This document shows, one piece after another, positions 51,928 through 61,048 of a stretch of 64,000 nt of DNA. The notes under the pieces were generated by a model. It ran no database searches and was not told where the DNA came from. It saw nothing but the letters and a program-made list of their open reading frames with translations. Origin of the DNA: an uncultured Clostridium sp. (GTDB taxonomy: Bacteria > Bacillota > Clostridia > Lachnospirales > Lachnospiraceae); NCBI GenBank assembly GCA_945915475.1, contig CAMEFI010000011.1, positions 1 to 64,000 on the forward strand, read 5' to 3'. Each line of letters opens with the position of its first letter. Position 1 is the first letter of the stretch. The position numbers and the translations under genes were made by a program.

Positions 51928-52554
51928 ATGCATTATCCATTTGAAATCGAAAAATTACCATATGATTACACCGCTTTAGAACCCTATTTGTCCTGTGAAA
52001 CACTACATTTTCACCATGACAAGCACTATGCAGCCTATATAAATAAGCTGAATGAAATCCTTAAGAACTACCCTAATCTACAGAATATGTCTCTAGAAGA
52101 TCTGTTGATCAAGACGGATGAACTTCCCAACGAGGCTAAGACATCTATCCGTAACAATGCCGGCGGCGTATATAACCACGAATTATATTTTGCCTGTATG
52201 AACTCCGCGGACAGCGAGCTTCCAACAGACCATTTAGCCGCCGCCATCAATGTTACCTTCGGTTCCATCGACCAGTTCAAAGCAGAATTATCCGGTGCAG
52301 CAATCAACCAGTTTGGTTCCGGATACGGGTGGCTTATCCTGTCAAACAAAAAGCTGGAAATCATCGCAACGCCAAATCAGGACACTCCCATCTCACCAAC
52401 GGTTACACCACTTCTGTGTATTGATGTATGGGAACATGCCTACTATCTGCAATATCAAAATCGCCGTGCTGACTATGTCGATAACTGGTTTAACCTGATC
52501 AATTGGGATTTTGTAGGCGCACGCTATATGTCACTTATGAAAGAGCCGGTATAA
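51928..52554 (+). CDS. sod: Superoxide dismutase, Mn/Fe family
   Basis: 208 aa. Metal ligands are in place: His29 (LHFHHDKHY), His84 (GGVYNHELYF), Asp166 and His170 (IDVWEHAYYLQYQNRR). Outer-sphere Gln is in the Mn-type position (PNQDTPISP, Gln151) and the Fe-type Gln after NNA is a Gly here, so a Mn-dependent or cambialistic enzyme is more likely than strict Fe. Cytosolic (no signal). AAAGGAG RBS. Overlaps the convergent hydF gene by 20 bp. An oxygen-defence gene beside a hydrogenase-maturation gene is notable but perhaps incidental. Confidence 0.93.
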   Translation: MHYPFEIEKLPYDYTALEPYLSCETLHFHHDKHYAAYINKLNEILKNYPNLQNMSLEDLLIKTDELPNEAKTSIRNNAGGVYNHELYFACMNSADSELPTDHLAAAINVTFGSIDQFKAELSGAAINQFGSGYGWLILSNKKLEIIATPNQDTPISPTVTPLLCIDVWEHAYYLQYQNRRADYVDNWFNLINWDFVGARYMSLMKEPV

Positions 52555-53725
52555 CCTCAATACTTCTTTGCAAAATTCCATTCATGTGGGCAATCAATAT
52601 TCCATAATTCGTAAATGGTACCTTCTGCGCTACCGCTGTCTGCATCCGGTAGCGCATTTCTTTTTCATTCAGCATGCACCCCCCACAATGTACAACTAAC
52701 CGAAATCTGCTCAGATCTTCCGGGAATTCCGATCCAGAGCAGAAAACAAATTCCGTCTCCTTTCCCGTATACCTGCGAATCCAGTCAGGCAGCTTTACCG
52801 TTCCAATATCTTCACACTGGCGATGATGTGTACATCCTTCCGCAATCAGGATTCTGTCTCCATCCTGCATATCTTCTAATATGCCCACAGATTTCACTGC
52901 CGTTTCAAGAAAACCTTTCCATCTGGCCATCAAAATGGAGAAAGAAGTAAGATATACATCTTCGGGTGTATCTTGCGACACCTTCTTAAAAGCCTGGCTG
53001 TCAGTAATTACCATATAAGGCCTGGTTCCCAATCTTGCAAGGGTTTCTTTCAGTTCCGTATCTCTCGTCACAACCGGAATCGCTCCTGCCTCTAATACAT
53101 CCCGAATCACCTGCTGCTGCGGCAAGATCAATCTTCCCTTGGGAGCTGCCGAATCAATGGGAATCACCAACACAACAAAATCATGCGGATGCAGTAAATC
53201 TCCTACAATCCGAAAGCGAGAATCATCCACTTTTACAAGATGCGCTATCCTTTCTTTGAGTTCATCAATTCCTTTCTTTGTAAGAGTGCTTACATAAATA
53301 CTGTTCTCATCCGCTATTGAGTCTCTTTTGCAAATATCTGCCTTATTATAAACGATAAGATATGGCAGATTTCTTTCTTTGAACAGCGTTGTTAATTCCT
53401 GTTCCAATTTCGTAACGCCAATCGTTCCATCCACCACCAGTATTGCTATATCAATCCTGCGTAATACCTGTTTCGTCTTCTCTACTCTTAACGTTCCCAG
53501 TTCTCCCTGATCATCTATTCCCGGTGTATCAATTATCATAACCGGCCCTAACGGTAATAATTCCATAGCCTTGCAGACGGGATCTGTCGTGGTTCCCTTT
53601 TGGTCTGACACTACCGATAGCATCTGTCCCGTTACTGCATTTACCAAACTGGATTTGCCGGCATTTCTTCTTCCAAAAAAGCCAATTTGTATCCGGTTAC
53701 CTGCCGGTGTATCATTTAAACCCAT
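52535..53725 (-). CDS. hydF: [FeFe]-hydrogenase maturation GTPase HydF
   Basis: 396 aa. N-terminal GTPase: P-loop GFFGRRNAGKSS, MIIDTPGIDDQGELGTLRVE, and NKAD base-recognition motif. C-terminal cluster-binding domain retains the [4Fe-4S] ligands Cys298-x-His300 (GCTHHRQ) and His346-Cys347-x-x-Cys350 (HCGGC). HydF is the scaffold that receives the precursor of the H-cluster's two-iron unit from HydE and HydG. Those and the hydrogenase are not in this window. Implies H2 metabolism in the host. Confidence 0.95.
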   Translation of the reverse strand: MGLNDTPAGNRIQIGFFGRRNAGKSSLVNAVTGQMLSVVSDQKGTTTDPVCKAMELLPLGPVMIIDTPGIDDQGELGTLRVEKTKQVLRRIDIAILVVDGTIGVTKLEQELTTLFKERNLPYLIVYNKADICKRDSIADENSIYVSTLTKKGIDELKERIAHLVKVDDSRFRIVGDLLHPHDFVVLVIPIDSAAPKGRLILPQQQVIRDVLEAGAIPVVTRDTELKETLARLGTRPYMVITDSQAFKKVSQDTPEDVYLTSFSILMARWKGFLETAVKSVGILEDMQDGDRILIAEGCTHHRQCEDIGTVKLPDWIRRYTGKETEFVFCSGSEFPEDLSRFRLVVHCGGCMLNEKEMRYRMQTAVAQKVPFTNYGILIAHMNGILQRSIEVIPALS

Positions 53726-53877
53726 ATTCTTTCCTCCTATCGAGATTTGGTAGCTTTCAACACTGTTGAAATATAATATTTTCTATTGTCTACATCATAT
53801 ACCCCTATACAGAAACTACGCAACAGGAAAACTTTGTAATTTTTTAGAAAATTTTATGTTTTTTCTTAACAAATTCA

Positions 53878-53886
53878 TGATATAAT
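53878..53886 (+). promoter_or_regulatory. Extended -10 promoter in front of the folded stretch
   Basis: TGATATAAT (53878-53886) is an extended -10 embedded in the first dyad repeat; the -35 is poor. The predicted start (about 53893-53898) is at the foot of the outer stem of the folded RNA. Confidence 0.5.
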
Positions 53887-53897
53887 GAACGCATAAA

Positions 53898-54012
53898 CAC
53901 GAATGCAACTTTCGTTGGAAACCATTAACTGCTTGCAGGCAAATGGTTTCTTCGAAAGTTATATGAGTGCAACGAACACTGAGAAACCGAAGGTTTCGAA
54001 GTGGCATTCGTG
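53898..54012 (+). ncRNA. Candidate structured RNA or 5' leader, unassigned
   Basis: Outer stem CACGAATGC (53898-53906) with GCATTCGTG (54004-54012). Inside, AACTTTCG (53907-53914) pairs with CGAAAGTT (53953-53960) and AAACCATT (53919-53926) with AATGGTTT (53942-53949), making one long arm; GTG/CAC (53967-53979) may form a small arm and GAAACC/GGTTTC (53983-53997) another. Promoter-like sequence precedes it directly. Not a T-box, SAM, TPP or other riboswitch type I know. Confidence 0.5.
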
Positions 54013-54115
54013 CTAAGGGAGTTCACGATATAATAAGCACGAAGTGCGAGTTCACGATATCATGAACGCATAAGTATTGCCATATACTATTTAAAACACA
54101 CAAGGTGGGATGAAC

Positions 54116-55276
54116 ATGGATGGATACGATAATGAAGAACAATTAACAGAAGCAGAATTAGAAGACATCAAGCGTGAACGTGCTGCCGCCCGCAGAAGGA
54201 AGCTGGCTGCCCGGGAGCGCCGTAGAAAAAAACGTCGCAGACAGGCTATTATCCGCTGCAGTATTTTATTAGTTGCAGTTATTTTAATCCTATTTATTAT
54301 TGTAAAAATAATTACCGGCATTGTCGGTTTGTTTACGAACAATAAGAAATCCAAAGCAACCACAGAGGAGATATCTACCACACAGCAAATAACTACAGAA
54401 GCTCCGGTTGCAGAAATTGACGAAGCCATTCTTGCAAAAGATTTACCTGCAGACCGTGATGCAGCTCTTGCTCTATTGCAGACACAGGCCCAGACAGATA
54501 CTGATATCCAGGGAATTATAGATAACGAAGCCGTTTATCCGGATATTTTATTACGGAATCTGGCAGCGAATTCTGAATTAAAACAATATACAATTGATTA
54601 TATTGCTAAAATCAACATTGTATTTGATGGTAATTTCAATATGGATGTCAGTATGAGCGAAGTACCGTTATTTCTCCAATATGATGAACAATGGGGATAT
54701 GCAGATTATGCCAATGATCTTGTTGCCTTTAGCGGAAGTGCTCCGACCTGTCTATCTATGGCATATACTTATCTAAAGCAGGATGGGAGCATGAATCCTA
54801 TCAAAGTTGCTGATTATTCCACAGAAAAAGGATATGTGGACGAGCAGGGCGAAACCAACTGGGCTCTTATGACTGAAGGCGCTACTGCCCTTGGTCTGCA
54901 ATCCGATACTCTTACCATTACAGAAGATGATATGAAGACTGCTTTAGAAGAGGGAAAAGTTATTATTTGCTCCGTTGCTCCCGGAGACTTTACAAGAACC
55001 GGAAGTTTCCTTGTCATTAAAGCTTATAAAGATGGTCTATTCTATATCAACGATCCAACAAGCCAGGCACGCAGTAATGTCGGTTGGGATTTCAAGCGAT
55101 TAAGCGATCAGATTACCAATATGTGGGCATTAAGCAACGGAACCGGAGAAGAAACAGACAATGCTGCAAATGCTAATTCAGACAGTACCGACGTGAAGGA
55201 CACCAGCAACACAGATGCAACAAGTACCACCCAGGCAACCACTGCAGAGGATGATGCCTCACAGACTGCAAACTAG
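54116..55276 (+). CDS. Membrane-anchored C39-like protein lacking catalytic residues
   Basis: 386 aa from the ATG at 54116 (AAGGTGG seven bases upstream); the ATG at 54110 is too close to the SD. Very basic cytosolic N-terminus (RAAARRRKLAARERRRKKRR), one transmembrane helix (CSILLVAVILILFIIVKIIT), a Thr-rich linker, and an extracellular C39-type cysteine-peptidase fold (VPLFLQYDEQWGYADYANDL). The expected GCGPT is GSAPT, so catalytic Cys is Ser208; the expected GHF/Y is GSF, so His is Ser297; the Asp/Asn site INDPTS is kept. Hence probably a non-catalytic binding protein. Ser/Thr/Asp tail. Confidence 0.82.
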   Translation: MDGYDNEEQLTEAELEDIKRERAAARRRKLAARERRRKKRRRQAIIRCSILLVAVILILFIIVKIITGIVGLFTNNKKSKATTEEISTTQQITTEAPVAEIDEAILAKDLPADRDAALALLQTQAQTDTDIQGIIDNEAVYPDILLRNLAANSELKQYTIDYIAKINIVFDGNFNMDVSMSEVPLFLQYDEQWGYADYANDLVAFSGSAPTCLSMAYTYLKQDGSMNPIKVADYSTEKGYVDEQGETNWALMTEGATALGLQSDTLTITEDDMKTALEEGKVIICSVAPGDFTRTGSFLVIKAYKDGLFYINDPTSQARSNVGWDFKRLSDQITNMWALSNGTGEETDNAANANSDSTDVKDTSNTDATSTTQATTAEDDASQTAN

Positions 55277-58967: not shown

Positions 58968-59245
58968 TAGTAAAACATAAATAGCACAGAGAAATGCGAA
59001 GAATGGGACACATTATAACGTACATTTTTTTCAGAGAGCCGTTGTTTGGTGTGAAACGGTAAGAATCAGTTATAACATCACCCTGGAGCATCCTGCTGAA
59101 TGATTTAGTAGGTTAGGACGGATTCCCCACGTTACCGGGGAGCATTGTTGTTGGACAATGCATGAGAGGTCATGGCTCATGGCAAGCAGAGTGGTACCAC
59201 GGATTATTTCGTCCCTGCAGTTTTTTGAAACTGCAGGTTTTTTTA
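58968..59245 (+). promoter_or_regulatory. T-box leader, specifier apparently AUC (isoleucine)
   Basis: Stem I apical region (AGAGAGCCG...GGTGTGAAACGG), then the specifier: ATC at 59077-59079 followed by A-C-CCTGGAGC, the same register as GGC-A-U-UCUUGAGC in glyQS. A Stem II-like CCCC/GGGG hairpin, Stem III GCATTGT/ACAATGC (59143-59162), T-box AGAGTGGTACCACG (59188-59201) with the TGG that pairs with the tRNA CCA end, and the terminator at 59214-59244. Uncharged tRNA-Ile should favour antitermination. Confidence 0.85.
59214..59244 (+). terminator. T-box regulated terminator
   Basis: CCTGCAGTTT pairs with AAACTGCAGG (4-nt loop) followed by seven T. The 5' arm overlaps sequence that would pair with the T-box motif in the antiterminator. 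Confidence 0.88.
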
Positions 59246-59347
59246 TGTGACAATCTACATAGCGAGAAATATCTGATAAAATCTGTTGCCGGATTCTCTC
59301 TCAGAGCATGGATTTGTGAAATACAATTTATGAAAAGAGGAAACAAA

Positions 59348-61048
59348 ATGAACGGAATTTTGATGATGGTAATTGCCATTGCAGTATTAGGCGGCGCCTA
59401 TCTGATCTATGGTCGTTATCTGGCAAAGAAATGGGGCATTGATGAAAATGCAAAAACCCCGGCATATGAATTAGAGGATGGTGTGGACTATGTTCCTGCG
59501 GATACCAATGTGGTATTCGGTCATCAGTTTGCATCCATCGCTGGTGCCGGACCAATCAACGGTCCAATTCAGGCAGCAATCTTTGGATGGGTGCCTGTAC
59601 TGTTATGGATCTTAGTCGGTGGCGTATTCTTCGGTGCCGTACAGGATTTTGCATCTATGTATGCATCTGTTAAAAACAAAGGACGTACAATCGGTTATAT
59701 CATTGAAGAGTACATTGGAAAGTTAGGAAAGAAATTATTCTTAGCATTCTGTTGGTTATTCTGTATTTTAGTAATTGCTGCTTTTGCAGACGTTGTAGCA
59801 GGTACCTTCAACGGTTTTCAATTAGATGAAGCAGGTGCAGTAGTTGATAAGATTGCAGCAAACGGTTCTGTTGCAACCACCTCTGTATTATTCATTGTAG
59901 AAGCTGTTATTCTTGGGTGCATCTTAAAATATGCCAAACTTCCAAAATGGCTCAACACTGCTATTGCCATCTTAATGTTAGTCGGTGCCGTTGCCCTTGG
60001 ATTGGCATTTCCGATGTATTTAAGCCGTGGTGTATGGCATCTCATCATTTTTGCTTATGTTTTGATTGCCTGTGTTGTTCCGGTATGGGCATTGTTACAG
60101 CCGCGTGATTATCTTAACAGTTACTTGTTAATTTTCATGATCGTTGCAGCCGTGGTAGGAATCTTTATCGCAAATCCATCATGTAACCTGAATGCGTTTA
60201 ACGGATTTGTTGTAGACGGACAGTACCTGTTCCCTATTTTATTTGTAACCATTGCATGTGGTGCCGTATCCGGTTTCCACTCACTGGTTTCTTCCGGTAC
60301 TGCTTCAAAGCAGATTAAAAATGAAAAGAATATGCTTCCGGTTTCCTTTGGTGCCATGTTAATGGAAAGTATGTTAGCAGTAATTGCTTTGATTGCCGTT
60401 GCATCCTTTGCACAAGGGGAAGCTGCTGCCCAGGGTCTGACCACACAGCCACAGATTTTTGCCGGTGCGATTGCAAACTTCTTAACAGCTGCCGGTCTTC
60501 CATACAGTCTGGTATTTACATTAATTAACCTTGCAGTTTCTGCCTTTGCATTAACCTCTCTGGATTCTGTTGCCAGAATCGGAAGACTTTCCTTCCAGGA
60601 ATTTTTCGTGGATGAGGATACAGACGAAAAGAACATGAGCCCGGTACTGAAATTTGTTACCAACAAATACTTTGCAACCATCATCACTTTGGTACTTGCT
60701 TATCTGTTAGCCAAAGTGGGATATGCAGAAATCTGGCCATTGTTCGGTTCTGCAAATCAGTTGCTCTCCGTACTTGCCCTGGTTGCATGTGCTGTATTCT
60801 TAAAAAAGACAAACCGTCAGGGCATTATGCTCTGGATTCCAATGTTTTTCATGATGGCAGTTACCTTCAGTGCATTGGGACTTACCATCTTCAAATTATC
60901 CAAAGCATTCCTTGCAACCGGATTGAGTCTTGGTAACACATTGCAGTTAATCTTCGCTATCTTATTGCTGGTTCTCGGTGTCATTGTGGCTATCCAGGGT
61001 ATCCACAAACTGACAGAGAAGAACACTGCAGAAGCTAAACCATTATAA
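59348..61048 (+). CDS. cstA: CstA-family transporter (carbon starvation protein)
   Basis: 566 aa from ATG 59348 (GAGG seven bases upstream). A longer frame to 59162 lies inside the T-box and is not used. About 15 hydrophobic helices; CstA marks YVPADTNVVFGHQFASIAGA then GPINGPIQAAIFGWVPVLLW, VKNKGRTIGYIIEEYIGK, VSGFHSLVSSGTASKQIKNE and SLDSVARIGRLSFQEFF. CstA proteins import peptides or pyruvate. Control by an Ile-type T-box suggests a role in branched-chain amino acid or peptide supply. Followed by a strong terminator. Confidence 0.93.
   Translation: MNGILMMVIAIAVLGGAYLIYGRYLAKKWGIDENAKTPAYELEDGVDYVPADTNVVFGHQFASIAGAGPINGPIQAAIFGWVPVLLWILVGGVFFGAVQDFASMYASVKNKGRTIGYIIEEYIGKLGKKLFLAFCWLFCILVIAAFADVVAGTFNGFQLDEAGAVVDKIAANGSVATTSVLFIVEAVILGCILKYAKLPKWLNTAIAILMLVGAVALGLAFPMYLSRGVWHLIIFAYVLIACVVPVWALLQPRDYLNSYLLIFMIVAAVVGIFIANPSCNLNAFNGFVVDGQYLFPILFVTIACGAVSGFHSLVSSGTASKQIKNEKNMLPVSFGAMLMESMLAVIALIAVASFAQGEAAAQGLTTQPQIFAGAIANFLTAAGLPYSLVFTLINLAVSAFALTSLDSVARIGRLSFQEFFVDEDTDEKNMSPVLKFVTNKYFATIITLVLAYLLAKVGYAEIWPLFGSANQLLSVLALVACAVFLKKTNRQGIMLWIPMFFMMAVTFSALGLTIFKLSKAFLATGLSLGNTLQLIFAILLLVLGVIVAIQGIHKLTEKNTAEAKPL

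Follow-up and report, generated by a model that had tools for sequence, protein, structure and literature searches.

Small palindromic repeats in bacterial genomes

Small palindromic repeats are usually regarded as intergenic debris that has no fixed place. The ERIC or IRU elements are palindromic, ~127 bp long, dispersed and co-transcribed with their neighbours, and their effect on an upstream message depends on orientation (PMC2229807). The same source portrays the Correia or NEMIS elements of Neisseria as small, dispersed, able to fold as RNA and linked to promoters (PMC2229807). REP and GTAG sequences are palindromic as well, and some of them supply a stop codon to the upstream gene (PMC3733652). 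Moreover, a screen for structured RNAs takes inconsistent orientation as a mark of "mobile/repeat sequence candidates" (PMC11109978).

Here, an element is described from an uncultured Clostridium sp. of the Lachnospiraceae, in a stretch of 64,000 nucleotides (contig CAMEFI010000011.1, positions 1 to 64,000), which is called the window. The element is dispersed, keeps a three-stem fold and, in its main subfamily, stands in one orientation and in a fixed register behind a -10 box, which is the host's own at 7 of 10 loci compared. It is probably a non-autonomous, MITE-like palindromic element of ~120-140 bp that is dispersed in Lachnospiraceae, with the steps of entry and retention that are proposed below. 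In the literature searched, the element is not described; an unnamed entry in the supplements of ncRNA screens is possible. In the following, relative genomes carry G-numbers and loci carry L-numbers.

Structure and surroundings of the window copy

The stretch 53890-54020 folds with -48.6 kcal/mol, compared with -28.0 (sd 3.7) for shuffled sequences (z -5.5; none of 200 shuffles equal), which bears out the folded stretch with a closed outer stem and two arms that the initial annotation had drawn at this place. The single-stranded DNA version likewise folds stably (z -6.7). All features of the copy lie on the plus strand. The outer stem P1 consists of a 5' arm (CACGAATGC, 53898..53906) and a 3' arm (GCATTCGTG, 54004..54012), and it encloses the long variable hairpin P2, with CTGCTTGCAG at its apex (53907..53960), and the short hairpin P3, CACTGAGAAACC-GAA-GGTTTCGAAGTG (53977..54003); all three stems are delimited by fold and covariation. 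P2 and P3 are separated by an unpaired joining strand (53961..53976) that is near-invariant in the alignment of copies and whose TATRTGAGTGYAACGAACA runs from 53960 on into P3. Directly behind P1, repeat searches delimited a second, separate repeat module with GTTCACGATATMAT dyads flanking a GCACGAAGTGC hairpin (54013..54073), which few copies of the element carry. When both strands of the window were searched against Rfam, nothing resembling the element passed the gathering cut-off, and at E values of up to 1 four relative loci gave no family. Thus, at the thresholds used, the structure belongs to no known riboswitch or RNA family, as had been supposed.

A host -10 box, TATAAT preceded by TGA, lies at 53881..53886 of the plus strand and is also present in the element-free orthologous promoter of G015. 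If the usual -10 spacing is assumed, the predicted start is at ~53893, about 5 nt ahead of P1, which agrees with the earlier proposal of an extended -10 and a start at the foot of the stem. A scan of the window region for consensus -35/-10 pairs found 0, with 1.4 expected in shuffles, and the window's own -35 is a poor match; the promoter is therefore supported by its extended -10 and by conservation in relatives. Transcription from a promoter of this kind would begin ~4-5 nt ahead of P1, so that the RNA would have the three-way junction at its 5' terminus.

The 23-nt dyad repeat TTCATGATATAATGAACGCATAA at 53874..53896 (plus strand) recurs at 54022 (70%) and 54051 (91%), as the initial annotation had noticed; its description of these repeats as operator-like did not hold. 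According to the repeat search and to the border seen in other copies, the left repeat is composed of the native -10 region and the 5' border of the element, GAACGCATAA, and the -10 region persists in element-free relatives (TTTCATGcTATAcT in G019 and G023, TTCATGCTATAAT in G015). The right-hand repeats belong to the second module. A search for the dyad elsewhere in the genome, also suggested at the outset, located this module at two further loci (C13 and C7), and two G015 loci (L059 and L073) possess it too. The own genome contains another hairpin cassette, AAGAAAAACAAGCG..GCGAAGCAGGCATTTGTTTTTCTT (L021:1355-1531, L023:1735-1970), which begins directly behind a TGATATAAT and is joined to the GTTCACGATAT module.

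The gene downstream, sense to the element, encodes a Peptidase_C39_2-like protein (PF13529 by Pfam; 54110..55276, plus strand). This C39-like gene is present in 24 of 26 genomes of the genus, and among the model matches listed (E <=0.01, 124 candidates scored per genome) no element stands beside any of its orthologues except in the window. At the closest orthologue, which is found in G015 with 76% identity, the promoter is present without the element and the site is empty; G015 has TTCATGCTATAATGG and a short leader there. A riboswitch or leader specific to the C39-like gene was therefore rejected. Of the original claim of a new structured RNA leader of a pseudo-C39 gene, the structure with paired changes and the lack of an Rfam family stood, while the element is not private to this gene. 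Two other features of the window deserve mention. A T-box leader (RF00230, 110.6 bits) at 58990-59219 overlaps the start of the ORF 59162-61048. The divergent neighbour (52535-53725, minus strand) encodes a GTPase that is HydF-like by eye; at L129 a copy of the element adjoins what is apparently the same HydF-like gene, yet a different gene follows downstream.

Distribution of the element

Besides the full copy, the own genome contains clear pieces of the element at C13, C22 and C7. The piece on C22 (L022) is a decayed copy, and the gene that follows it is apparently the one that an intact copy precedes in G016 (L060). Matches were found in 9 of 60 genomes, the own genome included, all from one genus. 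With a model built from 14 copies (A2; 124 candidates scored per genome), 18 of the 26 genomes of the genus had a match at E <=0.01, so that homologous stretches in relatives, whose absence would have refuted the claim of the initial annotation, do exist. An exact pattern taken from the near-invariant strand hit 30 stretches in the genome collection, whose record titles name Lachnospiraceae (22), Eubacteriales (5) and Coprococcus comes, Clostridiales and Clostridium sp. (1 each). In Coprococcus comes, the copy at L116 stands ahead of an apparently Asp23-like gene. Finally, a second model without the promoter (A5, set R2) detected the element in at least 26 of 250 family genomes from 25 genera, a lower bound with 14 candidates scored per genome. 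Searches of plasmids with one copy, of phages with the window copy and of viral contigs with one exact pattern returned no match.

G015 is the genome of the genus with the most matches. Among its 11 full copies, the median identity is 77% and the best pair reaches 95.8%. No pair of upstream flanks scores above 27, and some downstream flanks have parts of repeats in common. The copies thus stem from recent copying and not from segmental duplication. As expected of a MITE-like element, the copies are shorter than 200 bp, non-coding and present at several unrelated loci, and P1 forms a terminal inverted repeat of 9-10 pairs in the main subfamily, which by eye is longer in some copies such as L227.

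Further repeats were seen along the way. At L130:6405-6892, most of the element is tandemly multiplied in units of ~118 nt, and at L136:5993-6250 and L140 its 3' part is multiplied in short units. Other families of repeated hairpins occur in the genus at L188 (upstream of adk in G017), L185 and L145; in G017, the hairpin units before adk are in tandem, and another example is the motif GCATTAGGAACGTTAGCC in G001 and G015. Moreover, one subfamily of the element has TGTTCAGAGCC ends, and a copy of it (L101:1501-1650) lies inside an apparent coding frame that by eye resembles the tail of a PD-(D/E)XK nuclease-like protein.

Position relative to promoters and genes

The position of the element was determined on sets that had been found by models or a pattern without the promoter part, which avoids bias. 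A -10 hexamer (at least 5 of 6 positions) occurs within 24 nt before the element at 27 of the 30 pattern loci, compared with 3.2 expected by chance, as estimated from random windows in these loci. The 30 are not independent, as G015 contributes 10, two other genomes contribute 5 and 4, and some sites are common; L081 stands for L138, which is the same copy. In all 27 promoter-linked copies, the hexamer (5 or 6 of 6) lies exactly 9 nt before the aligned element. The three remaining loci (L114, L125 and L133) represent one site behind purF. In 33 promoters, which comprise the 27 pattern loci and 6 of the R2 set and of which two of the 27 were placed at a second hexamer 17 nt off, the match to TTGACA peaks at a spacer of 17 (3.18 of 6; all other values between 8 and 39 give 1.1-2.0), and TGn directly precedes the -10 in 25. 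In the more diverged R2 set, a -10 was present at 6 of 25 loci (2.6 expected) and at varying distances; the promoter rule is therefore limited to the main subfamily and does not extend to all relatives.

The orientation is consistent in the pattern set. When the ORFs were read by eye, the element was sense to the gene that follows it at 29 of the 30 pattern loci, and the remaining one (L127) lies at a contig end; at L115, a masked N run covers 65-165 nt past the element and the next frame, from +288, is sense. In the R2 set, 17 of 25 copies are sense to the downstream gene, which is more than 300 nt away in L215, L226 and L231. Another 4 lie behind a sense gene and face a convergent one (L216, L217, L219 and L227), 2 are antisense (L218 and L236) and 2 were not assigned (L212 and L224).

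Such a distribution could in principle arise if the element inserted at random and survived only where it is harmless or helpful, namely in sense orientation and immediately after a -10 or a stop codon. We consider this unlikely. It would agree with the few matches per genome in most genomes and with the existence of some antisense or convergent copies (L218, L236, L216 and L217). However, the 27 of 27 promoter-linked copies of the promoter-blind set are equidistant from the -10, and since an insertion elsewhere in the 5' leader should do no more harm, selection for a single register would need to be strong.

The element was also found at the 3' ends of genes. Copies start at the stop codon in fliE-fliF (L089 and L091), purF-purB (L114, L125 and L133) and obg-yhbY (L090), and seven lie at the prfA stop codon (L212, L215, L216, L219, L222, L223 and L226), where prfA is confirmed by Pfam for L215 only and the remaining gene names were assigned by eye. 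The prfA gene is present in 98 of 100 family genomes; among 30 fetched prfA loci, which were the best matches to the query, only L243 has a copy, and it is degenerate. Before what is apparently the same next gene, the prfA site lacks the element in L238 and carries it in L223. A tree built from 37 prfA proteins, weakly resolved (4 of 34 inner branches starred), requires 5 changes in carriage, of which at least 2 are forced; an ancient single insertion behind prfA was rejected on these grounds. The site thus seems to have been gained or lost several times. The end of prfA, which often reads ATGAACGAATAG or nearly so, resembles the left border of the element, GAACGYATAAG, and this likeness may be the reason why prfA is targeted. 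In L212, L216, L217 and L223, P2 ends in a run of T and by eye looks like a nested intrinsic terminator; such terminator-like versions of P2 appear to be frequent where the element follows prfA or another 3' end. Of 21 regions upstream of adk, 2 contain the element, and G025 seems to retain a remnant.

Occupied and empty sites

To whom the -10 belongs can be read from relatives in which the site is empty. Ten loci were compared, namely the window and nine of the 11 full copies of G015; L123, with too little sequence behind it, and L128, for which only genes of low identity were found, were omitted. At seven loci (window, L121, L124, L135, L122a, L137 and L081), a relative has the same promoter with its -10 in place and no element. 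A locus was counted when the alignment of the 75 nt leading to the -10 beat the best score among 234 non-orthologous pairs (36). Where the local alignment ends within or just ahead of the hexamer, as it does for L121, L122a, two of the three orthologues of the window and, in the case of L081, the orthologue in G000, the -10 itself was read by eye. The flanks of the other three loci (L134, L122b and L140) are not alignable, with scores of <=25. At L124, all three relatives retain TTTGATATAAT, each with a different leader. The presence of the same promoter in relatives without the element indicates that the -10 is the host's own at 7 of the 10 loci, with the element 0-3 nt behind it. Precise deletion rather than insertion may have occurred at any single site; several of the G015 copies are young. 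Filled and empty sites, here and behind prfA, are a further property of MITE-like elements. A clear target-site duplication was not seen by eye in the filled and empty pairs, the flanks of which have diverged.

An element that brings its own -10 and makes promoters on landing, as has been proposed for Correia elements, is suggested by the left border GAACGYATAA, which directly follows TATAAT in most copies. This is very improbable, as the promoter of the relatives, including the -10, exists without the element at 7 of the 10 loci compared; moreover, the purF copies have no in-register hexamer and the -35 lies outside the element. A carried promoter is therefore contradicted at these 7 loci.

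Paired changes in the stems

The stems vary among copies while pairing is kept. Changes on both sides were found in 24 of 42 pairs of the A2 alignment, and in 41 of 42 pairs of 67 model-fitted matches, where the fitting biases the result toward the model. When 40 copies were aligned with MAFFT, blind to structure, both sides had changed in 32 of 40 pairs, and the covariation score was 0.486, compared with 0.183 in shuffled alignments and <=0.115 when the structure was slid. The comparison with relatives for covariance, which the initial annotation had recommended, thus showed stems that are kept by paired changes. The case that it had put forward against itself, a scattered repeat without covariation, applies as far as the scattering is concerned and fails on covariation, orientation and the fixed promoter register of the main subfamily. 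Across copies, the joining strand hardly varies.

Selection acting on RNA is expected to favour G-U pairs. In the unfitted alignment, in which part of P3 is misaligned between two subclasses, 40 G-T and 52 A-C mismatches were counted in 1582 cells, and the fitted alignment contains 85 and 60, respectively, in 2555 cells. As G-T and A-C mismatches are about equally frequent, although selection on RNA should favour G-U, the pairing may partly be maintained at the level of DNA. The balance of mismatches argues against selection on RNA only, and part of the covariation may reflect repair of the palindrome at the DNA level. In 38 of 40 copies, RNA of the sense strand folds more stably than that of the antisense strand, by a mean of 6.5 kcal/mol and not via G-U pairs, a count from copies that are not independent and whose loops are common by descent. 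The P1 5' arm could instead pair with the joining strand, and 98% of cells are compatible with this; only 2 of 7 of these pairs show a double change, and 241 of 500 shuffles matched this.

Several copies look as if template switching had occurred in them. The outer stem of L092, in G006, now has a 5' arm that is complementary to the joining strand, and at the corresponding place G009 (L088) has retained the usual 5' arm. At an apparently common site in G002 and G005 (L094 and L095), P2 is identical and the P3 hairpins are quite different, and at the site behind purF, P2 of L133 differs from that of L114 and L125. Moreover, P1 extends into the host DNA by a mean of 0.51 pairs in 78 copies, compared with 0.24 when the right flanks are re-dealt, and 2000 deals gave a maximum of 0.45; in L227, the extension by eye includes the stop codon of the upstream gene. 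It could thus be argued that the paired changes arise solely from the correction of imperfect palindromes by template switching during replication, with no selected function. The nearly equal numbers of G-T (40) and A-C (52) mismatches in 1582 cells, the 5' arm of L092 as a complement of the middle strand, the outward extension of P1 (0.51 compared with 0.24 pairs) and the exchange of whole hairpins for different ones, likewise well paired, at one site (L094/L095, L114/L133) all fit this explanation. We regard it as somewhat unlikely in this exclusive form, since the near-invariant unpaired strand, the register and the orientation would be left unexplained and the sense fold is the more stable one in 38 of 40 copies.

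The same features could also describe a cis-regulatory RNA, riboswitch-like or protein-binding, that serves a regulon and has the near-invariant joining strand as its recognition site. Strong paired changes, a near-invariant unpaired strand, the sense orientation of 29 of 30 promoter-blind loci and the predicted location at the start of messages speak for such a leader. However, the downstream genes (adk, purB, fliF, pyrF, truA, mnmG and others) have by eye no common theme, the element is missing at most orthologous genes examined, it has recently been copied inside one genome, and G-T and A-C mismatches are balanced. The conserved association with related genes that would mark a riboswitch or regulon leader was not found, and this explanation appears improbable. 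Strong covariation alone need not indicate a riboswitch; the balanced mismatches suggest that palindrome repair contributes to it.

Mobilisation and a proposed route of insertion

REPs are mobilised by RAYT Y1 transposases. A search for Y1_Tnp detected none in G015, and the loci of the three Y1 transposases found in G000, G016 and G017 gave no match to the model at E up to 1. Hence, no Y1 transposase beside the repeats was found, and mobilisation of the RAYT/IS200 type found no support. The left end of the main subfamily (<=2 mismatches) occurs 14 times in the 26 genomes, in 5 of them, and no longer element with the same left end is among the matches examined, all of which are short copies.

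For the MITE-like element, the following route may be envisaged. An enzyme acting in trans would move the element, perhaps as a hairpin-forming single strand, and this strand would enter melted promoter DNA or a matching site. 5' stem-loops hide the end of a message from 5'-dependent decay. Once inserted, the 5'-terminal hairpins could accordingly protect the message from decay that needs a free 5' end, or would at least be neutral, and copies in the wrong orientation or register would be lost. The arms would stay complementary partly by template switching between the DNA arms and partly by selection on the folded strand. One step of this route is put forward tentatively, as it seems to us a little more doubtful than not: the transcription bubble may be the target of insertion, the element entering 0-3 nt downstream of the -10 and oriented with transcription, so that it becomes the 5' end of host messages. 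If this is true, the element would be a bacterial counterpart of retroelements that target start sites, with hairpins that are freely rewritten yet stay paired. The constant orientation and promoter distance at many unrelated genes make the site choice of non-autonomous bacterial repeats testable, as well as the idea that a mobile element can come to stabilise or regulate housekeeping messages from their 5' end.

Comparison with described repeat families

Among the described families, ERIC or IRU resembles the element in size, palindromic structure and dispersal, a likeness by description and not by sequence with the account in PMC2229807. In contrast to what is described there, the main subfamily stands in a fixed register behind -10 boxes, its stems vary freely with pairing kept, and it belongs to another bacterial group. 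Correia or NEMIS elements are said to bring putative promoters (PMC2229807), whereas here the -10 is the host's at 7 of 10 loci compared. Compared with the REP or GTAG sequences, the element is longer and has three stems, and G015 lacks a Y1 gene; moreover, REPs are placed mostly downstream of coding regions (PMC3733652), while this element lies mainly upstream of genes. The mobile or repeat candidates of the structured-RNA screen, likened by description only, are multi-copy covarying motifs as well (PMC11109978), and the element differs from them, as they are characterised in that screen, by its consistent orientation in the main subfamily. Taken together, the element appears by analogy to work like ERIC and Correia and to differ from both in its register, in the host-owned -10 and in its freely rewritten stems.
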